Source: Acidimicrobiia bacterium
Lineage (GTDB): Bacteria; Actinomycetota; Acidimicrobiia; Spongiisociales; JAHEDJ01
Length of the DNA: 64,000 nt
Reading direction: 5' to 3'
Assembly: GCA_029210695.1 (NCBI GenBank)
Contig: JARGFH010000009.1
Span: forward strand, 1-64,000
Part shown: piece by piece, positions 32,539 to 46,368 of the stretch
Position numbering within the stretch: the stretch's first letter is position 1
How the letters are laid out: each line of letters opens with the position of its first letter
Notes under the pieces: model-generated
The model's input: the letters and a program-made list of their open reading frames with translations, nothing else
Databases searched by the model: none
What the model was told of the DNA's origin: nothing
Translations under genes and position numbers: made by a program

Positions 32539-34009
32539 CGCTACCTCCAAGCGCTTCGAGGAGTTGGGGGACGGTGAGTGAGCTATCGAGCAGCTCCTCT
32601 ACGAGGTCCTTACTTCCTCTCAAGGGCTCCATCATAGGCACCCGTGTGAGTGAACCCTCCCCGGTATCGAAGACGAGCGAATCCCAGTTGGCAGCTACCA
32701 GCGCGGTCGGATACCGGGCAACGCATTCACCCCGGAAATAGGCGCGGGTCCCTTGCGGTGGGTGAGTTGCCGCCTCGTCGACTTCTGAATCTGTGAACAA
32801 TCGGTTGATTGCCCCGCGACGTACCAGGCGTTGGAAGATCCCACGCTCTGGATCAACATCATGGAACTGAAGGTTCAGCGCTCGTAGCTTCGGATCGGTC
32901 CAGGAGAGCCCATCTCGCTCCTGCATCCCCGTGAGTAGGCGAAACTTGGCGGCCCAATCCAGGCGATCTGCGGTCGAGAGAGGGTCGCGCTCGAGGTCGG
33001 TCAGGATCTTCGCCCACTCGGAAAGCAGCAGGTCGTGTTCTCCTTCGAACTGTTCCGCGTACTTGGTGAGCCACTCGTGATACTGCCACTGCAGATCGAG
33101 CGCGGTGGCGGTGGCTCCGCCTTCGAGCCGGAGCGGGCGGCGCATCTCCAGGTCGTGACTGACCTGCCAGCACGACTCCACCGGATGTTGCAAGGTTAGG
33201 GCTTCGGGCAGCGCGCCGTCCTCGAGCGCGGCCAGCAACAGCGCAGTCGTCCCGACCTTCAGGAATGTCTGGGTTTCGGACATCGTGGCGTCACCGATGA
33301 TCACGTGCAATCGACGGTATTTCGAAGGCGTCCCGTGCGGTTCATCCCTTGTGTTGATTATCGGCCGCTTCAGGGTTGTTTCGAGGCCCACCTCCTCTTC
33401 GAAGAAGTCTGCTCGTTGTGTCAACTGGAAGTCCACGTCGGGGCGACCGTTCTCCGAACCGAGTTTGCCGGAACCGGTGAAAACCTGCCGGGTCACGAGG
33501 AAGGCAGTCAGATGATGGATCACGTCTTCAAACGGCAGCGCACGGGCGAGCAGGTAGTTTTCATGGGCGCCGTAAGAGTTGCCCCTTCCGTCGCTGTTGT
33601 TCTTGTAGACACCGACGATCTGGCCGGCAGGAACGAGCTCCTGGGCAGCCCGGGCGGCTCTGGCCATGACGACTTCGCCCGCCTTGTCGTGGAGAGCAGC
33701 TTCGAGAGGAGTACGGCACTCGGGAGTCGAGTACTCAGGATGAGCATGGTCGACGTAGAGGCGGGCGCCGTTCGTCAGAACCACGTTGGCCATCCCAGCC
33801 TCTAGATCCGAAGAAACGGCGACCTCAAATCCAAAGCCGCGGGCATCACGGCCGGGTGACTCCTCCTCGAACGACCATTGCACCCGGGCAGCATCACCGC
33901 GGTAGGCATTGATCACGAGGCCGGACGCTACCGATGGGTTGAAGTCGGGCTGGTTCCGGATGGTGATCCCGAATTCGGTCTCGGTTCCAATCACCTTCGT
34001 CAATGCCAC
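32498..34009 (-). CDS. dop: Pup deamidase/depupylase Dop
   Basis: A 503-residue PafA paralogue with Glu10 (GTETEFGI) and nucleophile-region Asp87 (VDHAHPEYSTPE), YKNNSDGRGNSYG and the Dop-specific loop near residues 40-65. Dop removes Pup from substrates; its deamidase role is unneeded if Pup already ends in Glu. GTG 34009 overlaps the arc stop (TAGTG). A C-terminal tail rich in Gly and Thr extends 41 bp into pup. Confidence 0.95.
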   Translation of the reverse strand: MALTKVIGTETEFGITIRNQPDFNPSVASGLVINAYRGDAARVQWSFEEESPGRDARGFGFEVAVSSDLEAGMANVVLTNGARLYVDHAHPEYSTPECRTPLEAALHDKAGEVVMARAARAAQELVPAGQIVGVYKNNSDGRGNSYGAHENYLLARALPFEDVIHHLTAFLVTRQVFTGSGKLGSENGRPDVDFQLTQRADFFEEEVGLETTLKRPIINTRDEPHGTPSKYRRLHVIIGDATMSETQTFLKVGTTALLLAALEDGALPEALTLQHPVESCWQVSHDLEMRRPLRLEGGATATALDLQWQYHEWLTKYAEQFEGEHDLLLSEWAKILTDLERDPLSTADRLDWAAKFRLLTGMQERDGLSWTDPKLRALNLQFHDVDPERGIFQRLVRRGAINRLFTDSEVDEAATHPPQGTRAYFRGECVARYPTALVAANWDSLVFDTGEGSLTRVPMMEPLRGSKDLVEELLDSSLTVPQLLEALGGSDGRAGTETTPTTG

Positions 34010-35739
34010 TACAGGTACTGTCCCGGCGTCATCGTCTCAATGGTCTTCGACTCGGACTCCCCCTCGATCAGGGTTCGCACGTAGACGATCCGTTCACCCT
34101 TCTTGCCGGAGATCTTCGCCCAGTCGTCGGGATTCGTGGTGTTCGGGAGGTCCTCATGTTCGCGGAACTCCTGCTTGATGGCGGCCAGCAGGTCGCTGGT
34201 CCGGATACCGGCTTCACCGTCGTTGATCTCTCGCTTGATGGCGTCCTTTTTTGCGCGGCGGACGATGTTCTCGATCATCGCGCCACTCGAGAAGTCCTTG
34301 AAATAGAGGACCTCCCGGTCGCCGTTCGCATACGTGACTTCGAGGAACTTGTTTTCGTCGCCCGTGCCGTACATGCGGGACACGGTCTGGCTGATCATGT
34401 CCGAGATCATGTCCCGGGGCTCTCCACCGTGTGCACCGACCTCACCGGCGTCGAGCGGCAGTTCGGGAGAAAGGTAGATCCGGAATATCTCCCCTGCCGC
34501 CTCCTCACTGGGACGGTTGATCTTGATCTTCACGTCGAGACGTCCCGGTCGAAGGATGGCGGGATCGATGAGATCCTCACGGTTCGAGGCGCCGATGACG
34601 ATGACGTTCTTCAGGCTCTCCACACCATCGAGCTCGGAGAGCAACTGCGGGACGATGGTGGATTCCACGTCGGACGAAATGCCGGTTCCCCTCGTCCTGA
34701 ACAGGGAGTCCATTTCGTCGAAGAAGACGATGACGGGCACGCCTTCATCCGACTTCTCTTTAGCCCTCTGGAAAATCAGCCGGATCTGGCGCTCCGTCTC
34801 ACCGACGTATTTGTTCAGCAGTTCAGGGCCTTTGATGTTCAAGAAGTAGGACCGCGCGTCCTCCCTACCCACTCGCTGCGCAACGGCTTTGGCGAGGCTG
34901 TTGGCCACGGCTTTTGCGATCAGGGTCTTTCCGCAACCCGGTGGCCCGTACAGCAGCACACCTTTGGGGGCCTCGAGATCGTACTTCTCGAAGAGAACCT
35001 TGTGTACGTATGGAAGCTCGACCGCATCGCGGATCGTTTCGATTTGTTCTCCGAGGCCGCCGACCATCTCGTAGGTGATGTCGGGAACCTCCTCGAGCAC
35101 GAGTTCCTCGACCTCCGGCCGGGCGAGCTTCTCGTGGACCAGGTTGGCTTTGGCGTCGATCCGAACGTGGTCGCCGGCCCGAAGGAACTGTTCCCGCATC
35201 GGCTCGGCGATCTCAACGACGCGCTCTTCGTCACCGTGGCCGACCACGATGAGCCGGTGTTCGTCGAGGCGTTCTTTCACGGTGGCGATCTCGCCCGTGG
35301 AGTCGAAGTGCCGCACGTCGACGACGTTGAGGGACTCGTTCAGCAACACCTCCTGCCCCCGCTGCAACTGCTTGACCTCGATCGTCGGCTGAGCACTGAC
35401 CCTCATCTTTCGACCGGCGGTGAGCACATCCACGGTGCCGTCTTCGTTGGTGTTGATCACCGTTCCGAAAGGATTCGGCGGTGTGGTGAGTTTCTCGACC
35501 TCCTCACGAAGCACCGAAAGCTGCTCACGAGCCTCTTCGAGCACATTGGTCAGGCGTTCGTTCTGTTCGACTGCCCTGCGCAATTGGGCCTTCTGCTCGA
35601 TGAGTCGTTCTTCGAGAATCCGCACGTGTTTGGGAGCGTCGAGCAGCCGACCGCGCAGGGTGGCAGCCTCTCCCTCGAGCCGGGCAATCGTAGCGAGAAG
35701 GTCACGAATCTCGGCCCGGTCGTGTGGTTCGTTCGTCAT
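34009..35739 (-). CDS. arc: Proteasomal AAA ATPase Arc/Mpa
   Basis: A 576-residue ring ATPase that recruits pupylated proteins and unfolds them into the core. Coiled coil at residues 10-85 (binds Pup), OB domains about 88-220, Walker A GPPGCGKT (265-272), Walker [10 protein letters not shown], the sensor [12 protein letters not shown], and a C-terminal tail ending QYL, the proteasome-docking motif. It is first in the run arc-dop-pup-prcB-prcA. Confidence 0.97.
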
Positions 35740-35756
35740 GAGGTACCTCTATTCGC

Positions 35757-35762
35757 AGTATA
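35757..35762 (-). promoter_or_regulatory. Putative -10 element of the arc-dop-pup-prcBA operon
   Basis: TATACT on the minus strand, 17 nt before the arc ATG. The -35 is not clear. The same 123-bp gap should hold the divergent ferredoxin promoter; TAGGAT at 35823-35828 is a candidate. Confidence 0.5.
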
Positions 35763-35862
35763 CGGATGCAGCCGTCTTGTACATACCAGGGCGGGAAGTC
35801 CCGGCTTGGCGACAACGTGCAGTAGGATGACGCTCCGCAAAACACCGAACCAGGAGTTCGAC

Positions 35863-36108
35863 ATGAAGGTGTGGATCGATCAGGATCTCTGCACAGGAGA
35901 CGGTCTCTGCGAAGAGATCGCACCGGACGTATTCGTGATGCTCGATGACGGACTGGCCTACGTCCGTGAGGGCGAGAAGATCTTCGCCGAGGCGGAGAAC
36001 AACTCGCAGGGAGCAGACGGTGTCGCCGTAGTACCGGCCGGGCAAGAGGACATCACGGTGGAATCTGCCGAGGAATGCCCCGGCGAGTGCATATTCATTG
36101 AGCCCTAG
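35863..36108 (+). CDS. Small ferredoxin (3Fe-4S/4Fe-4S type)
   Basis: An 81-residue ferredoxin starting at ATG 35863 with AGGAG 6 nt upstream. Cys10 (DLCTGDG), Cys16 (LCEE) and Cys74/Cys78 region (ECPGEC) give the single-cluster pattern in which Asp replaces the second cysteine of the first motif, as in 3Fe-4S ferredoxins serving cytochromes P450 and other oxygenases. It is divergent from arc; no obvious partner is adjacent. A much longer plus frame through arc is spurious. Confidence 0.9.
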   Translation: MKVWIDQDLCTGDGLCEEIAPDVFVMLDDGLAYVREGEKIFAEAENNSQGADGVAVVPAGQEDITVESAEECPGECIFIEP

Positions 36109-41909: not shown

Positions 41910-43859
41910 CTATGTTGCGAGTGCTGTGGTCGTCACTTCGACCAGTGTCGGCCCATCGGTCACGGCCAGCGCAGCGGTGATCGCCTGGCGCAGGTCTTCG
42001 GGTCGATCGACACGCCACCCACGAGCACCGCACAAGCGAGCGTATTCGGCGAAGTCTGGATTCACGAGTGACGTCCCCCAGATCGGACGCAGCGCCCCCA
42101 CCTGTTCCCGGCTGATCTTGCCCAGTTCGGAGTTGTTGAGGAGCACGTGCGTTATCGGCATAGAGTATTTCACCGCAGTCGTGAGGTCCGCCAGGTACTG
42201 GCCGAATCCCCCATCACCCGAAATCGAGATGACCTTCCGTCCGGTTCCTCTGGTGGCAGCCCAAGCTCCCATGGCGGCGGGGAAGGCAAATCCGATCGAG
42301 CCCAGATACCCGGACATGAGTACATCCTGGTCGGCTCCAGACTCGAAATAGTGGCCGAACGCATACGTGTTGTTTCCAACGTCGACCGACAGGACCGCGC
42401 CGTCGGGCACCAGCGCAGACAACTCATGGAAGATAGCGGAGGGATGCATTCGTCCCTGTTCGTCGGTGATGGCTCTCCGCCGTTCCTTTTCGACACGCCA
42501 CACCTGCTTTCGCCGTTCGACGTCGAGTCGCTGCTCGGGCCGGTCGGCCTGGTTCAGTCGGGTCGCCAGCAATTCGAGCGTCACTCCGATATCTCCCCAG
42601 ACGGGGATGTCGACGGGGGCGAACTTGCCGAGCGTCATCCGGTCGTAATCAACCTGAATGGTTGGCACCCAATTGGCGATGCCTGAGTGATTTGAGAACG
42701 ACGCCCCGAGCACCATTAGCGCGTCCGCCCGGCCCATTACCGCCGAGGCCACCGGAGTTCCCGACCGGCCGACCACCCCGCAGGCCAGTGGATGTGCATC
42801 CGGGATGAGTCCCTTCGCTTTGAAAGTTGTAATCACCGGGGCATCGAGGAACTCGGCCAGAGCGATGATCTCGGCGCGAAATGGGCGTGCACCGTTGCCG
42901 GCAACTATCACGGGTCGTCGCGCTCCGTTCAGCAGTTGCACGGCTTCGTCGATACCGGCGGCGGGTGGAGAGATCCGATGGTCGGCGACCCTCCCTGCTC
43001 GGGGGCGGGCCGGCGAATCGGTTCGCCCCGGCAGATTCTGTACATCGTCGGGAAAGATGAGGTGAGCCACGTCCCGCTGGACGATCGCATGCTTGAGCGC
43101 CAGCGCCATCAACTCAGTGGCATTTTCCTGACCGAGGACGGTCTGGCTCCACTCCGACACGGCCGCGTAGGCCTCGGCCAGCGGTATCTCCTGGAAGGCG
43201 CCGGGCCCCAGGACCTGAGTCTGGACCTGACCCGTCAGCGCCAGGATCGGAGCACGGTCGACCTTGGCGTCCCAGAGGCCGGTGAGGAGGTTTGTTGCCC
43301 CCGGCCCGGCGATGGCCAGGCAGGCGGCCGGGCGGCCGGTCAGCTTGCCGTATCCGCTGGCGGCGAAGGCGGCCGCTCCTTCGTGCCGGATTCCGAAATA
43401 GCTGAGCCTGCCGTCCTTCTCAGCACGCCGGAGGGCGTCGGCCAACCCGAGGTTGCTGTGTCCGACCATTCCGAACACGGTGTCGACGCCCCAGTCGGTG
43501 AGCACATCGACCATCTGATCCATCAGCGTCGGGGCCTCGTCCGCAACGGGCAACTCCACATAGAGGCCATCCGGGCGCAACTCGACCGGATAGGCAGTCG
43601 CCGCGTCCGTGAATCCCGGCGGTGGCTGTCCTGACACCGGGTCGTATTCGTAGCCGTGCCAGGGGCAGAGCAGGTATTCTCCCTCGACCTGTCCCTCTCC
43701 AAGGGGTCCACCCTGATGAGGACAGCGGTTGTCGAGGATGCCCCAGCCACTTTCGGTCCGGGTAACACACAGGGCGCGACCTCCCGCGCTGACCATCGTG
43801 GGCGTGTTCAACGCCAGATCGTCTGCGTCGAGCTTGAACCACGCCGACGTTGCTGCCAC
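41910..43859 (-). CDS. Rieske [2Fe-2S] domain fused to a ThDP-dependent pyruvate oxidase-like enzyme
   Basis: A 649-residue fusion. Residues 1-102 are a complete Rieske ferredoxin domain with both cluster motifs (RCPHQGGPLGEG and LLCPWHGYEYD). Residues 108-645 are a full ThDP enzyme of the acetolactate synthase/pyruvate oxidase family: the catalytic Glu in RHEGAAAFAASGYGKLTG, the central domain, and the ThDP-metal motif GDGGFGQ…LLNN. GTG 43859 is chosen because GGGGAG lies 6-7 nt upstream. It resembles pyruvate:quinone oxidoreductase; an attached Rieske domain could accept its electrons. The gene follows nfnBA on the same strand, 73 bp away. Confidence 0.88.
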   Translation of the reverse strand: MAATSAWFKLDADDLALNTPTMVSAGGRALCVTRTESGWGILDNRCPHQGGPLGEGQVEGEYLLCPWHGYEYDPVSGQPPPGFTDAATAYPVELRPDGLYVELPVADEAPTLMDQMVDVLTDWGVDTVFGMVGHSNLGLADALRRAEKDGRLSYFGIRHEGAAAFAASGYGKLTGRPAACLAIAGPGATNLLTGLWDAKVDRAPILALTGQVQTQVLGPGAFQEIPLAEAYAAVSEWSQTVLGQENATELMALALKHAIVQRDVAHLIFPDDVQNLPGRTDSPARPRAGRVADHRISPPAAGIDEAVQLLNGARRPVIVAGNGARPFRAEIIALAEFLDAPVITTFKAKGLIPDAHPLACGVVGRSGTPVASAVMGRADALMVLGASFSNHSGIANWVPTIQVDYDRMTLGKFAPVDIPVWGDIGVTLELLATRLNQADRPEQRLDVERRKQVWRVEKERRRAITDEQGRMHPSAIFHELSALVPDGAVLSVDVGNNTYAFGHYFESGADQDVLMSGYLGSIGFAFPAAMGAWAATRGTGRKVISISGDGGFGQYLADLTTAVKYSMPITHVLLNNSELGKISREQVGALRPIWGTSLVNPDFAEYARLCGARGWRVDRPEDLRQAITAALAVTDGPTLVEVTTTALAT

Positions 43860-43932
43860 TTGGTGCTCCCCTCGTTGTGGTTCGACGTTAGCGGGCCCTG
43901 CCTTCATCGATCGGGTCGAGGTGGCCCGTCGC

Positions 43933-45384
43933 TCAGACCTGGTCGAAGTCACCGTTGGTGAGATACCGGTTGATGTCGGCGGCGGCACGGCGTCCGGCCC
44001 CCATCGCCAGGATGACGGTGGCACCGCCCGTCACGATATCGCCCCCCGCCCATACACTCTTCTTGGTCGTGCGGCCGCTCGCCTCATCGGCAACTACGGT
44101 GCCCCACTTCGTGAACGCCAACCCGGGGGCGTTTCGCCTGAGCAAGGGGTTGGCATCGTTGCCGATTGCGATGACTGCCACGTCAACGTCGATCTCGTAT
44201 TCTCCGCCCTCGACCGGGACGGGACGCCGGCGACCGCTGTCGTCCGGCTTCCCGAGTTCCATCTGTTGGAGCCTGGCACTGGTGAGCCAGCCATCGTCCG
44301 TGCCGGAGAAACTCAGCGGGCTCGTCAGCAGTTTGAAGACGACCCCTTCGTCTTTGGCGTGGATGATCTCCTCGACTCTGGCAGGCATTTGCTCTTCCGC
44401 CCGGCGATAGATGATGGACGCTTCGGCCGCTCCAAGCCGGAGGGCCGTTCGCACTGCGTCCATGGCGGTATTCCCCCCGCCGAAGACCGCCACCTTCTTG
44501 CCTCGCACGTCGAAGATCGGCGTATTCGACCCATCCTCGTAGGCACGCATCAGATTGACTCTGGTGAGGAACTCGTTGGCGGAGTACACGCCGATGAGGT
44601 TCTCGCCGTCGATGTTCGTGAATTTCGGAAGGCCGGCGCCGACTCCCAGGAAGACTGCGTCGAATCCGTCCCGACCCAGCAGGGCGTTGATTGTTGTCGT
44701 CTGACCGATGACGGCGTTCGTAATGAACTCGACTCCCATCTGGCGAAGGCCGTCGATCTCAGCCCGAACAATCTCCTTTGGTAGCCGGAATTCGGGAATT
44801 CCGTACACCAGCACCCCGCCCAGTTCGTGGAGCGCCTCAAAGACCGTGACGTCGTGGCCGGCTTTGGCGAGATCGGTTGCACAGGCAAGGCCGGCCGGGC
44901 CCGAGCCGACAATGGCGACCTTCTTGCCGGTTCGGTAGGCCGGCACCTCAATGACGCCGAGATCGTTTAGCCGCTCATAGTCGGCGACAAACCGCTCGAG
45001 TGCCCCGATGGCGACCGACTCACCCTTCTTGGTGAGGACACACGCCCCTTCACACTGGTTCTCCTGGGGGCAGACCCGACCGCAGATTGCCGGCAGCGAA
45101 TTGTCGAGTTTGACGATCAGGGCGGCTTCTGCGAAGTGCCCTTCGGCCACCAGGCTCACGAACAGATCGATCTCGACTCCAACCGGGCAACCATCCATGC
45201 AAGTAGGCGTCTTGCACTCCAGGCACCGCATGGCTTCGAGCCTCGCCATGTTCTCCGTGAAGCCGAGATTGACCTCGCTGAAGTTGTGGGCTCGGTCCGC
45301 CGCTTCTTGTTCGGGCATCCGGAGTCGAGCGATAGCACGACGTTCCCGCTTGGGTGGCCAGACATCGGGGACCTCGATGGTCAC
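43933..45384 (-). CDS. NfnB/SudA-type ferredoxin-NADP oxidoreductase large subunit (GltD-like)
   Basis: A 483-residue flavoprotein of the glutamate-synthase small-chain family. The N-terminal region has two sets of cysteines (CLECKTPTCMDGCPVG and CGRVCPQENQCEGAC) for two [4Fe-4S] clusters. Then come FAD motif VAIVGSGPAGLACA, the NADPH motif VAVFGGGNTAMDAVRTA and the second FAD motif GGDIVTGGATVILAMGAGR. It overlaps the small subunit by 4 bp; no glutamate synthase large subunit is near, so a glutamate synthase role is unlikely. Confidence 0.88.
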   Translation of the reverse strand: MTIEVPDVWPPKRERRAIARLRMPEQEAADRAHNFSEVNLGFTENMARLEAMRCLECKTPTCMDGCPVGVEIDLFVSLVAEGHFAEAALIVKLDNSLPAICGRVCPQENQCEGACVLTKKGESVAIGALERFVADYERLNDLGVIEVPAYRTGKKVAIVGSGPAGLACATDLAKAGHDVTVFEALHELGGVLVYGIPEFRLPKEIVRAEIDGLRQMGVEFITNAVIGQTTTINALLGRDGFDAVFLGVGAGLPKFTNIDGENLIGVYSANEFLTRVNLMRAYEDGSNTPIFDVRGKKVAVFGGGNTAMDAVRTALRLGAAEASIIYRRAEEQMPARVEEIIHAKDEGVVFKLLTSPLSFSGTDDGWLTSARLQQMELGKPDDSGRRRPVPVEGGEYEIDVDVAVIAIGNDANPLLRRNAPGLAFTKWGTVVADEASGRTTKKSVWAGGDIVTGGATVILAMGAGRRAAADINRYLTNGDFDQV

Positions 45385-46214
45385 GTCTGGACCTGCTCGA
45401 GGAAAGCCTCTAGTCGGTTTCGCTCGAACCCAAGGTACGCCTTATTGCGCCTTTCCATCAGATCGAAATCGACCTCATGGGCATCGAACTCCGGCCCATC
45501 GACGCACGCAAATCGAGTTTCGCCACCGACACTCACCCGACACCCGCCGCACATGCCGGTTCCGTCCACCATGATCGGATTGAGACTCACGATCGTCTTG
45601 ATGCCGAACGGCCGCGTCACATCTGCGACGGCGCGCATCATGGGTATCGGTCCGATCGCCAGCACCAGGTCGAGGGTTTTGCCCTCATCGATGAGCCCCT
45701 GCAGTTTCTGCGTGACGAATCCGTGGAAACCGTAGCTCCCATCATCGGTGCATGGATAGAACTCGTCGGAGATGTCCCGGAGCGCCGGTTCCATGATTAC
45801 GTACTCCCTGGAACGACCTCCAACGATCGAAATCACGTAGTTGCCCGCACGCTTGAGGGCGACGGCCGTCGGGTAGGCAATCGCAGTGCCCACTCCCCCG
45901 CCGATCGACACGGCCGTTCCGAAGTTCTGAATATGCGATGGCATCCCCAGCGGCCCTGCTACATCATGGATAGAAGCCCCGGCCCCGAGCGTGTTCAAGT
46001 GTTTGGTTGTCTTGCCGACACCCTGGACGATGACGGCAATCCAGCCTCCGGATGCGTCACCGTCGGCGATGGTGAGCGGGATACGTTCACCATCCGCGGC
46101 TACTCGGAGTATGACGAACTGTCCGGCCCGGCGCGAGCGAGCGATCGACGGTGCCTCGATGCGGAAGTACTTGACGTCAGGCGCCAGAAAGCGTGCCTCG
46201 AGAATACGAAACAT
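45381..46214 (-). CDS. NfnA/SudB-type ferredoxin-NADP reductase small subunit
   Basis: A 277-residue subunit of the FNR-like superfamily. FAD motif RAGQFVILRV, NAD-binding IGGGVGTAIAYPTAVALK, and a C-terminal [2Fe-2S] set GMCGGCRVSV…FACVDGPEF. Paired with the GltD-like protein it forms a SudAB/NfnAB-type complex linking ferredoxin, NADPH and NADH. The start is ATG 46214; ATGs further upstream (46226, 46247) are possible. In anaerobes such complexes bifurcate electrons. Confidence 0.88.
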   Translation of the reverse strand: MFRILEARFLAPDVKYFRIEAPSIARSRRAGQFVILRVAADGERIPLTIADGDASGGWIAVIVQGVGKTTKHLNTLGAGASIHDVAGPLGMPSHIQNFGTAVSIGGGVGTAIAYPTAVALKRAGNYVISIVGGRSREYVIMEPALRDISDEFYPCTDDGSYGFHGFVTQKLQGLIDEGKTLDLVLAIGPIPMMRAVADVTRPFGIKTIVSLNPIMVDGTGMCGGCRVSVGGETRFACVDGPEFDAHEVDFDLMERRNKAYLGFERNRLEAFLEQVQT

Positions 46215-46368
46215 GATTGAGCCCATCAGGCAAACGACATTCTTCATCACGCATATTGGCGGGCAACCGGGGCAATACCCAGTGACCAAGGTCCCAACGG
46301 CCCCTCCGTGCGACCCGAACGGAGTCGAAAACCCTCACATAGACACCCGGCGGTCGGCCGGTGCACAG

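Follow-up and report, generated by a model that had tools for sequence, protein, structure and literature searches.

ThDP-dependent enzymes are known to pass electrons to lipoamide, FAD, a quinone, oxygen or 4Fe-4S clusters, and the pyruvate/acetate couple has a potential of about −700 mV. The closest described relatives of the gene analyzed here are PoxB of E. coli (3EY9/3EYA), PQO of C. glutamicum (9EV3–9EV6) and POX of L. plantarum (LpPOX, 1POX), with which its product shares the fold over three domains and, at the same places, the ThDP/Mg motif, the catalytic Glu, the F-Q pair and a second Glu. It differs from all three by an N-terminal Rieske domain, a Lys in place of Phe465/479 and an altered FAD-contact motif; the identity is about 27%, and the scores lie far under the NCBIfam cut-offs. 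The gene is located in a 64,000-nucleotide stretch of DNA from an Acidimicrobiia bacterium (contig JARGFH010000009.1), which is referred to as the window.

The preliminary description had placed a complete Rieske domain ahead of an intact pyruvate-oxidase-like enzyme in one frame, and this is borne out: the Rieske and TPP_enzyme_N, M and C domains fall within a single stop-free open reading frame, all above the curated Pfam cut-offs. On re-reading, the coordinates, strand and frame were correct and yield a single product (Table 1). The GTG at 43859 is preceded by GAGGGGAG at a spacing of 6 nt, which makes a strong ribosome site. Since the nearest relative (L008, 84% identity) has an ATG at the codon matching the GTG, the start is right and the two domains are co-translated. 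The same description would have considered itself refuted by a wrong GTG together with a stop between the domains in relatives, or by two separate genes in relatives. The ATG of L008 confirms the start, and the related loci consist of one open reading frame through both domains, except for copies ended by a contig boundary. A start-codon error or a split gene is thus excluded by the ribosome site, the ATG of L008 and the single open reading frames in relatives.

Table 1. Coordinates of the fusion gene, its motifs and neighboring genes (window positions unless a locus is given)
Feature	Position	Strand	Details
Rieske-ThDP fusion gene	41910..43859	-	649 aa, GTG start; same start codon as the ATG of L008
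Shine-Dalgarno sequence	43866..43873	-	6 nt before the GTG, read directly
Rieske [2Fe-2S] domain	43539..43841	-	residues 7-107; Pfam PF00355 at 11-78
First cluster motif C46-P47-H48	43716..43724	-	C46 and H48 invariant in alignment A1
Second cluster motif C65-P-W-H68	43656..43667	-	invariant in alignment A1
ThDP enzyme N-terminal (PYR) domain	43185..43529	-	residues 111-225; PF02776; catalytic Glu160, F222-Q223 (PoxB E50, F112, Q113)
ThDP enzyme middle domain	42570..42953	-	residues 303-430; PF00205; dinucleotide-site region G361-G367, GASFSNH 385-391, D404
ThDP enzyme C-terminal (PP) domain	41934..42383	-	residues 493-642; PF02775
ThDP/Mg-binding motif GDG(548-550)...N576	42132..42218	-	from alignment
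Fusion-specific Lys581 and Glu585	42105..42119	-	Lys581: Phe in PoxB/LpPOX, Met/Gln in other relatives
NfnL/GltD-like and NfnS/DHODB-type genes	43933-46244	-	4 nt overlap, upstream of the fusion
701-aa open reading frame	34003-36108	+	mostly spurious
DUF3179 gene, acidimicrobial MAG	L008:2067-3434	-	flanks fusion
DUF3179 gene, Haloferax plasmid	L099:9047-9985	-	flanks fusion
Membrane-anchored protein with OB-like domain	L066:4918-5679		22 relatives
Na_H_Exchanger (PF00999) genes	L066:602-1864; L055; L057; L083:7923-9056; L069:8782-10026; L098:8991-10223; L101:2223-3842		beside or near fusion

The Rieske domain of the window protein scores 46.1 bits against a Pfam cut-off of 20.3, and its ligand pattern, C46-P-H48-(16)-C65-P-W-H68, is of the ferredoxin type, as judged by the fit to CxH-(16–21)-CxxH and by the Pfam cut-off. 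The extra disulphide cysteines of the high-potential, bc1-type proteins (CTHLGC...CPCHG) are absent from the window protein, which reads CPHQGG...CPWHGY. CxH...CxxH is kept at 80 of the 81 loci, the lone exception being cut off by a contig end. All four ligands are invariant in the family alignment and persist across about eight phyla and in archaea; the cluster is therefore under selection. A one-electron acceptor role of this centre, in line with the acceptor role that the preliminary description considered for it, is plausible, because the fusion is conserved and the ThDP active site intact.

The three ThDP-enzyme domains score 113–114 bits each in Pfam, and the top PDB sequence match of the window protein is E. 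coli PoxB. The AlphaFold2 model (pLDDT 91, pTM 0.89) matches LpPOX with E=2e-46, PoxB with a TM score of 0.91 over the target and the AHAS-type structure 6lpi with E=3e-44; as judged by this predicted model, the ThDP part has the fold of pyruvate oxidase, and pyruvate oxidases are its best structural match. Glu160, F222-Q223, GDG...N and Glu585 align with PoxB E50, F112-Q113, GDG-N460 and E469, and the catalytic Glu, the GDG...N motif and the three domains of the PoxB family are all present. Invariant on the ThDP side of the family are E160, F222-Q223, D549-G550, N576 and E585. Every fusion whose sequence extends over the alignment column of PoxB Phe465 (LpPOX F479) has Lys581 there, and none of them has the active-site Phe of pyruvate oxidases; in the closest relatives lacking a Rieske domain, the residue is Phe, Met or Gln. 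Lys581 would face the substrate or an intermediate, and its presence suggests an altered substrate or a charge-stabilised intermediate. The TQFPY stretch of PoxB, which we take to be an FAD contact, reads ASFSN in the fusion, with the middle domain and D404 kept. Because Lys581 replaces Phe and TQFPY reads ASFSN, neither pyruvate as the substrate nor FAD is assured.

In a difference from PoxB and PQO only, the C-terminal lipid-binding tail is absent: the fusion protein ends near PoxB residue 530, where the tail would begin. The NCBIfam pyruvate oxidase models NF006377 and NF006591 give 396 and 300 bits (cut-offs 742 and 792), the AHAS model TIGR00118 gives 290 bits (cut-off 538), and no curated NCBIfam enzyme model among the matches listed has its cut-off reached by the fusion. 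The fusion is pyruvate-oxidase-like in fold and ThDP machinery, yet we withhold the name pyruvate oxidase, because the Phe (479/465) and the tail are missing and the curated cut-offs are not reached.

A scan of GTDB genomes returned 80 related loci with 52–84% identity to the window protein; neighbor counts are based on 81 loci. They belong to the Actinomycetota, Chloroflexota, Pseudomonadota (including Alphaproteobacteria), Bacteroidota, Planctomycetota, Ignavibacteriota, Acidobacteriota and SAR324. Further copies reside on plasmids of the haloarchaea Halorubrum, Halorarius, Haloferax and Salinirubellus and on one of Mycobacteroides abscessus. Among 148 genomes from the class of the window organism, all matches of at least 435 bits include the Rieske part, and the next ones, at 307 bits or less, are ordinary ThDP enzymes that begin near residue 110 and lack it. 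In a tree of the ThDP part only, a branch with 96/96 support separates the 36 fusions sampled, without exception, from 10 Rieske-less relatives; its outgroup branches are long, and it does not fix the exact sister of the fusion clade. Because the fusions are separated in this way, a single fusion event is the simplest reading.

Neighbor clustering identified a dominant companion gene, present near the fusion at 34 of the 81 loci and in at least five phyla. Its 540-residue product combines an N-terminal Rieske domain with a glutamate-synthase FMN domain (Rieske-GltS), in which the FMN region of GltS and the three Cys residues of the [3Fe-4S] site are retained. It departs from glutamate synthase in three respects: SPxRFxD in place of SPPPHHD, a Rieske domain of its own, and the absence of the glutaminase domain. 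The gene is often found directly upstream of the fusion, where the spacer is frequently 1–28 nt, and within approximately 1.5–4 kb in two haloarchaea; in the genome of the window organism it lies on a different contig (68% identity). Within the class, 13 of the 21 fusion genomes (148 in all) also encode Rieske-GltS, against 2.6 expected if relatedness is ignored, and among 199 Rhodobacteraceae 12 of 13 do so, against 1.4 expected on the same terms; many of the genomes are drafts. As would fit a pair gained or lost together, both genes are missing from two other genomes of the window's genus. The distances of fusion and partner correlate (34 loci gave a rho of 0.85 and 12 divergent ones a rho of 0.42, a value reached in 48 of 2000 permutations), which lends weak support to their linkage, because shared species history also yields such a correlation. 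Also common in Rhodobacteraceae is a paralogue of this partner that lacks the Rieske domain; it is about 70% identical over residues 131–536 and has no N-terminal match.

The Rhodobacterales add a third protein, with an MsrQ-like Ferric_reduct (haem-b) membrane domain and a C-terminal Rieske domain; it matches MsrQ/Ferric_reduct but differs from MsrQ in bearing this Rieske domain. It is encoded in 12 of the 13 fusion-bearing genomes among the 199 Rhodobacteraceae, where 1.3 would be expected with relatedness ignored. No homologue was found in the draft genome of the window organism, and 8 of the 21 fusion genomes of the class are without Rieske-GltS; hence both partners are dispensable, or other proteins can take their place. 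The Rhodobacterales operons also encode three small membrane proteins that were assigned to no family, and for the cluster-3 membrane protein a fair model (pLDDT 83) had no PDB match at E<0.001. Linked to the haem-b/Rieske protein is a protein that is anchored in the membrane and combines an OB-like domain with the motif D-x-K-C...GAMRP...H-x-ACA..C; it has no match in Pfam, NCBIfam or PDB.

The fusion has Na+/H+ antiporter genes next to it or close by in Rhodobacterales, Nocardiaceae, a flavobacterium, a haloarchaeon and a mycobacterial plasmid, and at L011 an ion channel gene follows it. The haloarchaeal plasmid copies are near merA, DsrE and TauE-type genes. A DUF3179 gene flanks the fusion both in an acidimicrobial MAG and on a Haloferax plasmid. 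The Acidimicrobiia neighbors for a peptide ABC transporter, ThiI and an OmpA-family protein were set aside: they differ between subgroups and resemble the general genome background. Elsewhere in the window, the last part of a mostly spurious open reading frame reads, by eye, as a small ferredoxin (MKVWIDQDLCTGDGLCEEIAPDVF...).

We propose, with a probability of roughly 55%, that the fusion is a soluble, cytosolic 2-oxoacid oxidoreductase that depends on ThDP, has the pyruvate oxidase fold and possesses its own Rieske outlet to a membrane or quinone-level acceptor. A 2-oxoacid, either pyruvate or a close relative that is probably more polar, would be decarboxylated on ThDP; the carbanion/enamine would be oxidized directly or via bound FAD; and the two electrons would exit singly through the Rieske [2Fe-2S] centre. 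The Rieske domain may provide protein–protein access to a redox partner, replacing the quinone-accessing lipid-binding tail of PoxB. We infer the substrate, oxidation over carboligation, the involvement of FAD, the direction of the electrons and the acceptor in the organism of the window. Ferredoxin-type Rieske centres have potentials near −150 mV (PMC11638306), and in glutamate synthase the FMN is at −240 mV and the [3Fe-4S] cluster at −280 mV (PMC8097209). A Rieske centre near −150 mV thus lies above the FMN and [3Fe-4S] of GltS and far above the pyruvate/acetate couple, so that transfer from the ThDP intermediate via the Rieske centre to haem b or quinone is feasible and transfer to ferredoxin hardly so; the reported values also permit flow from the FMN or [3Fe-4S] of GltS into a Rieske ferredoxin.

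In Rhodobacterales, the membrane haem-b protein with its C-terminal Rieske domain would be the likely hub, feeding the quinone pool, and the Rieske-[3Fe-4S]-FMN protein probably uses the same hub or swaps electrons with the fusion. The architecture suggests that the Rieske domains on the three linked proteins are docking and transfer units of one module. More tentatively, the Rieske-ThDP and Rieske-[3Fe-4S]-FMN enzymes might form a widespread Rieske-wired respiratory entry module, converging on a haem-b/Rieske hub and lying beside a Na+/H+ antiporter in several lineages.

An assembly or annotation artefact fusing two genes has a negligible chance of being right: we found no point in its support, and it is already refuted by dozens of assemblies, made independently of one another and comprising isolates and complete plasmids too, in which the same single open reading frame is present. 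The surroundings of the fusion in the window, where an otherwise normal Nfn pair is directly upstream on the same strand, would agree with the Rieske centre reducing ferredoxin in concert with the adjacent Nfn transhydrogenase. This is very improbable, since the arrangement recurs at none of the 80 related loci and none of the 5 plasmid loci, and L008, which has the same acyltransferase gene upstream, carries the unrelated DUF3179 gene on the opposite strand at the place of the Nfn genes. With a Rieske centre near −150 mV as the donor, the reaction would also be energetically uphill. The preliminary description had pointed to the Nfn pair as neighbors of the fusion, but a functional link to them is not supported; it had also considered that the Rieske centre could pass electrons to a quinone or ferredoxin, and delivery to a low-potential ferredoxin is unlikely at that potential (PMC11638306). 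The conserved partners, Rieske-GltS and, in Rhodobacterales, the haem-b/Rieske protein, were not visible to it.

A more serious competitor, although we consider it unlikely, is a non-oxidative carboligase or decarboxylase of the AHAS kind, in which the Rieske domain would act as a redox sensor, a regulator or a structural appendage, comparable to the FAD of AHAS, which has no redox function. AHAS-type enzymes match well (TIGR00118 and 6lpi, as above); the FAD-contact motif departs from POX, and the exchange of Phe for Lys on the acceptor side of the active site would mean changed chemistry. Against such a carboligase, the top families and structures are pyruvate oxidases, and the recurrent linkage with other Rieske-bearing redox proteins argues for electron traffic. 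The antiporter genes in several lineages and the merA, DsrE and TauE-type genes near the plasmid copies would instead fit a stress or detoxification oxidoreductase that acts on an electrophilic 2-oxo compound or aldehyde and is connected with ion homeostasis. We regard this as quite improbable: the antiporter is missing at most loci, and the plasmid neighborhoods are mixed cargo. The proposal is, moreover, silent on chemistry and would be compatible with the 2-oxoacid oxidoreductase that we favor.

In the open-access papers searched, we found no description of the Rieske-ThDP fusion, of its breadth or of the two other Rieske fusions being linked to it; the individual domains are known, and their combination, breadth and partner linkage are apparently undescribed there. 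Although many bacterial phyla as well as haloarchaea possess the gene, its plasmid copies carry only the generic annotation 'thiamine pyrophosphate-binding protein', and the partner genes offer a concrete, testable pathway. With the Rieske-type ferredoxins of aromatic oxygenases (BphF/HcaC type) and NirD, the fusion has the ferredoxin-type CPH...CPWHG in common, and it differs in that its Rieske domain is joined covalently to a ThDP enzyme; in the fusion-gene neighborhoods examined, no oxygenase genes were seen. Acetohydroxyacid/acetolactate synthase belongs to the same superfamily and has the same fold; the fusion lacks the FAD motif of AHAS (RFDD), gives weaker scores and has the Rieske domain added. 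PFOR (2-oxoacid:ferredoxin oxidoreductase) is alike in principle, combining ThDP chemistry with one-electron Fe-S acceptors, and differs in its domain layout, with no PFOR domains detected by Pfam in the window fusion protein, and in having 4Fe-4S clusters where the fusion has a 2Fe-2S Rieske centre. If the Rieske centre is indeed a built-in outlet of a ThDP enzyme, it would add another solution to the known electron acceptors of these enzymes, operating at a much higher potential than in PFOR.
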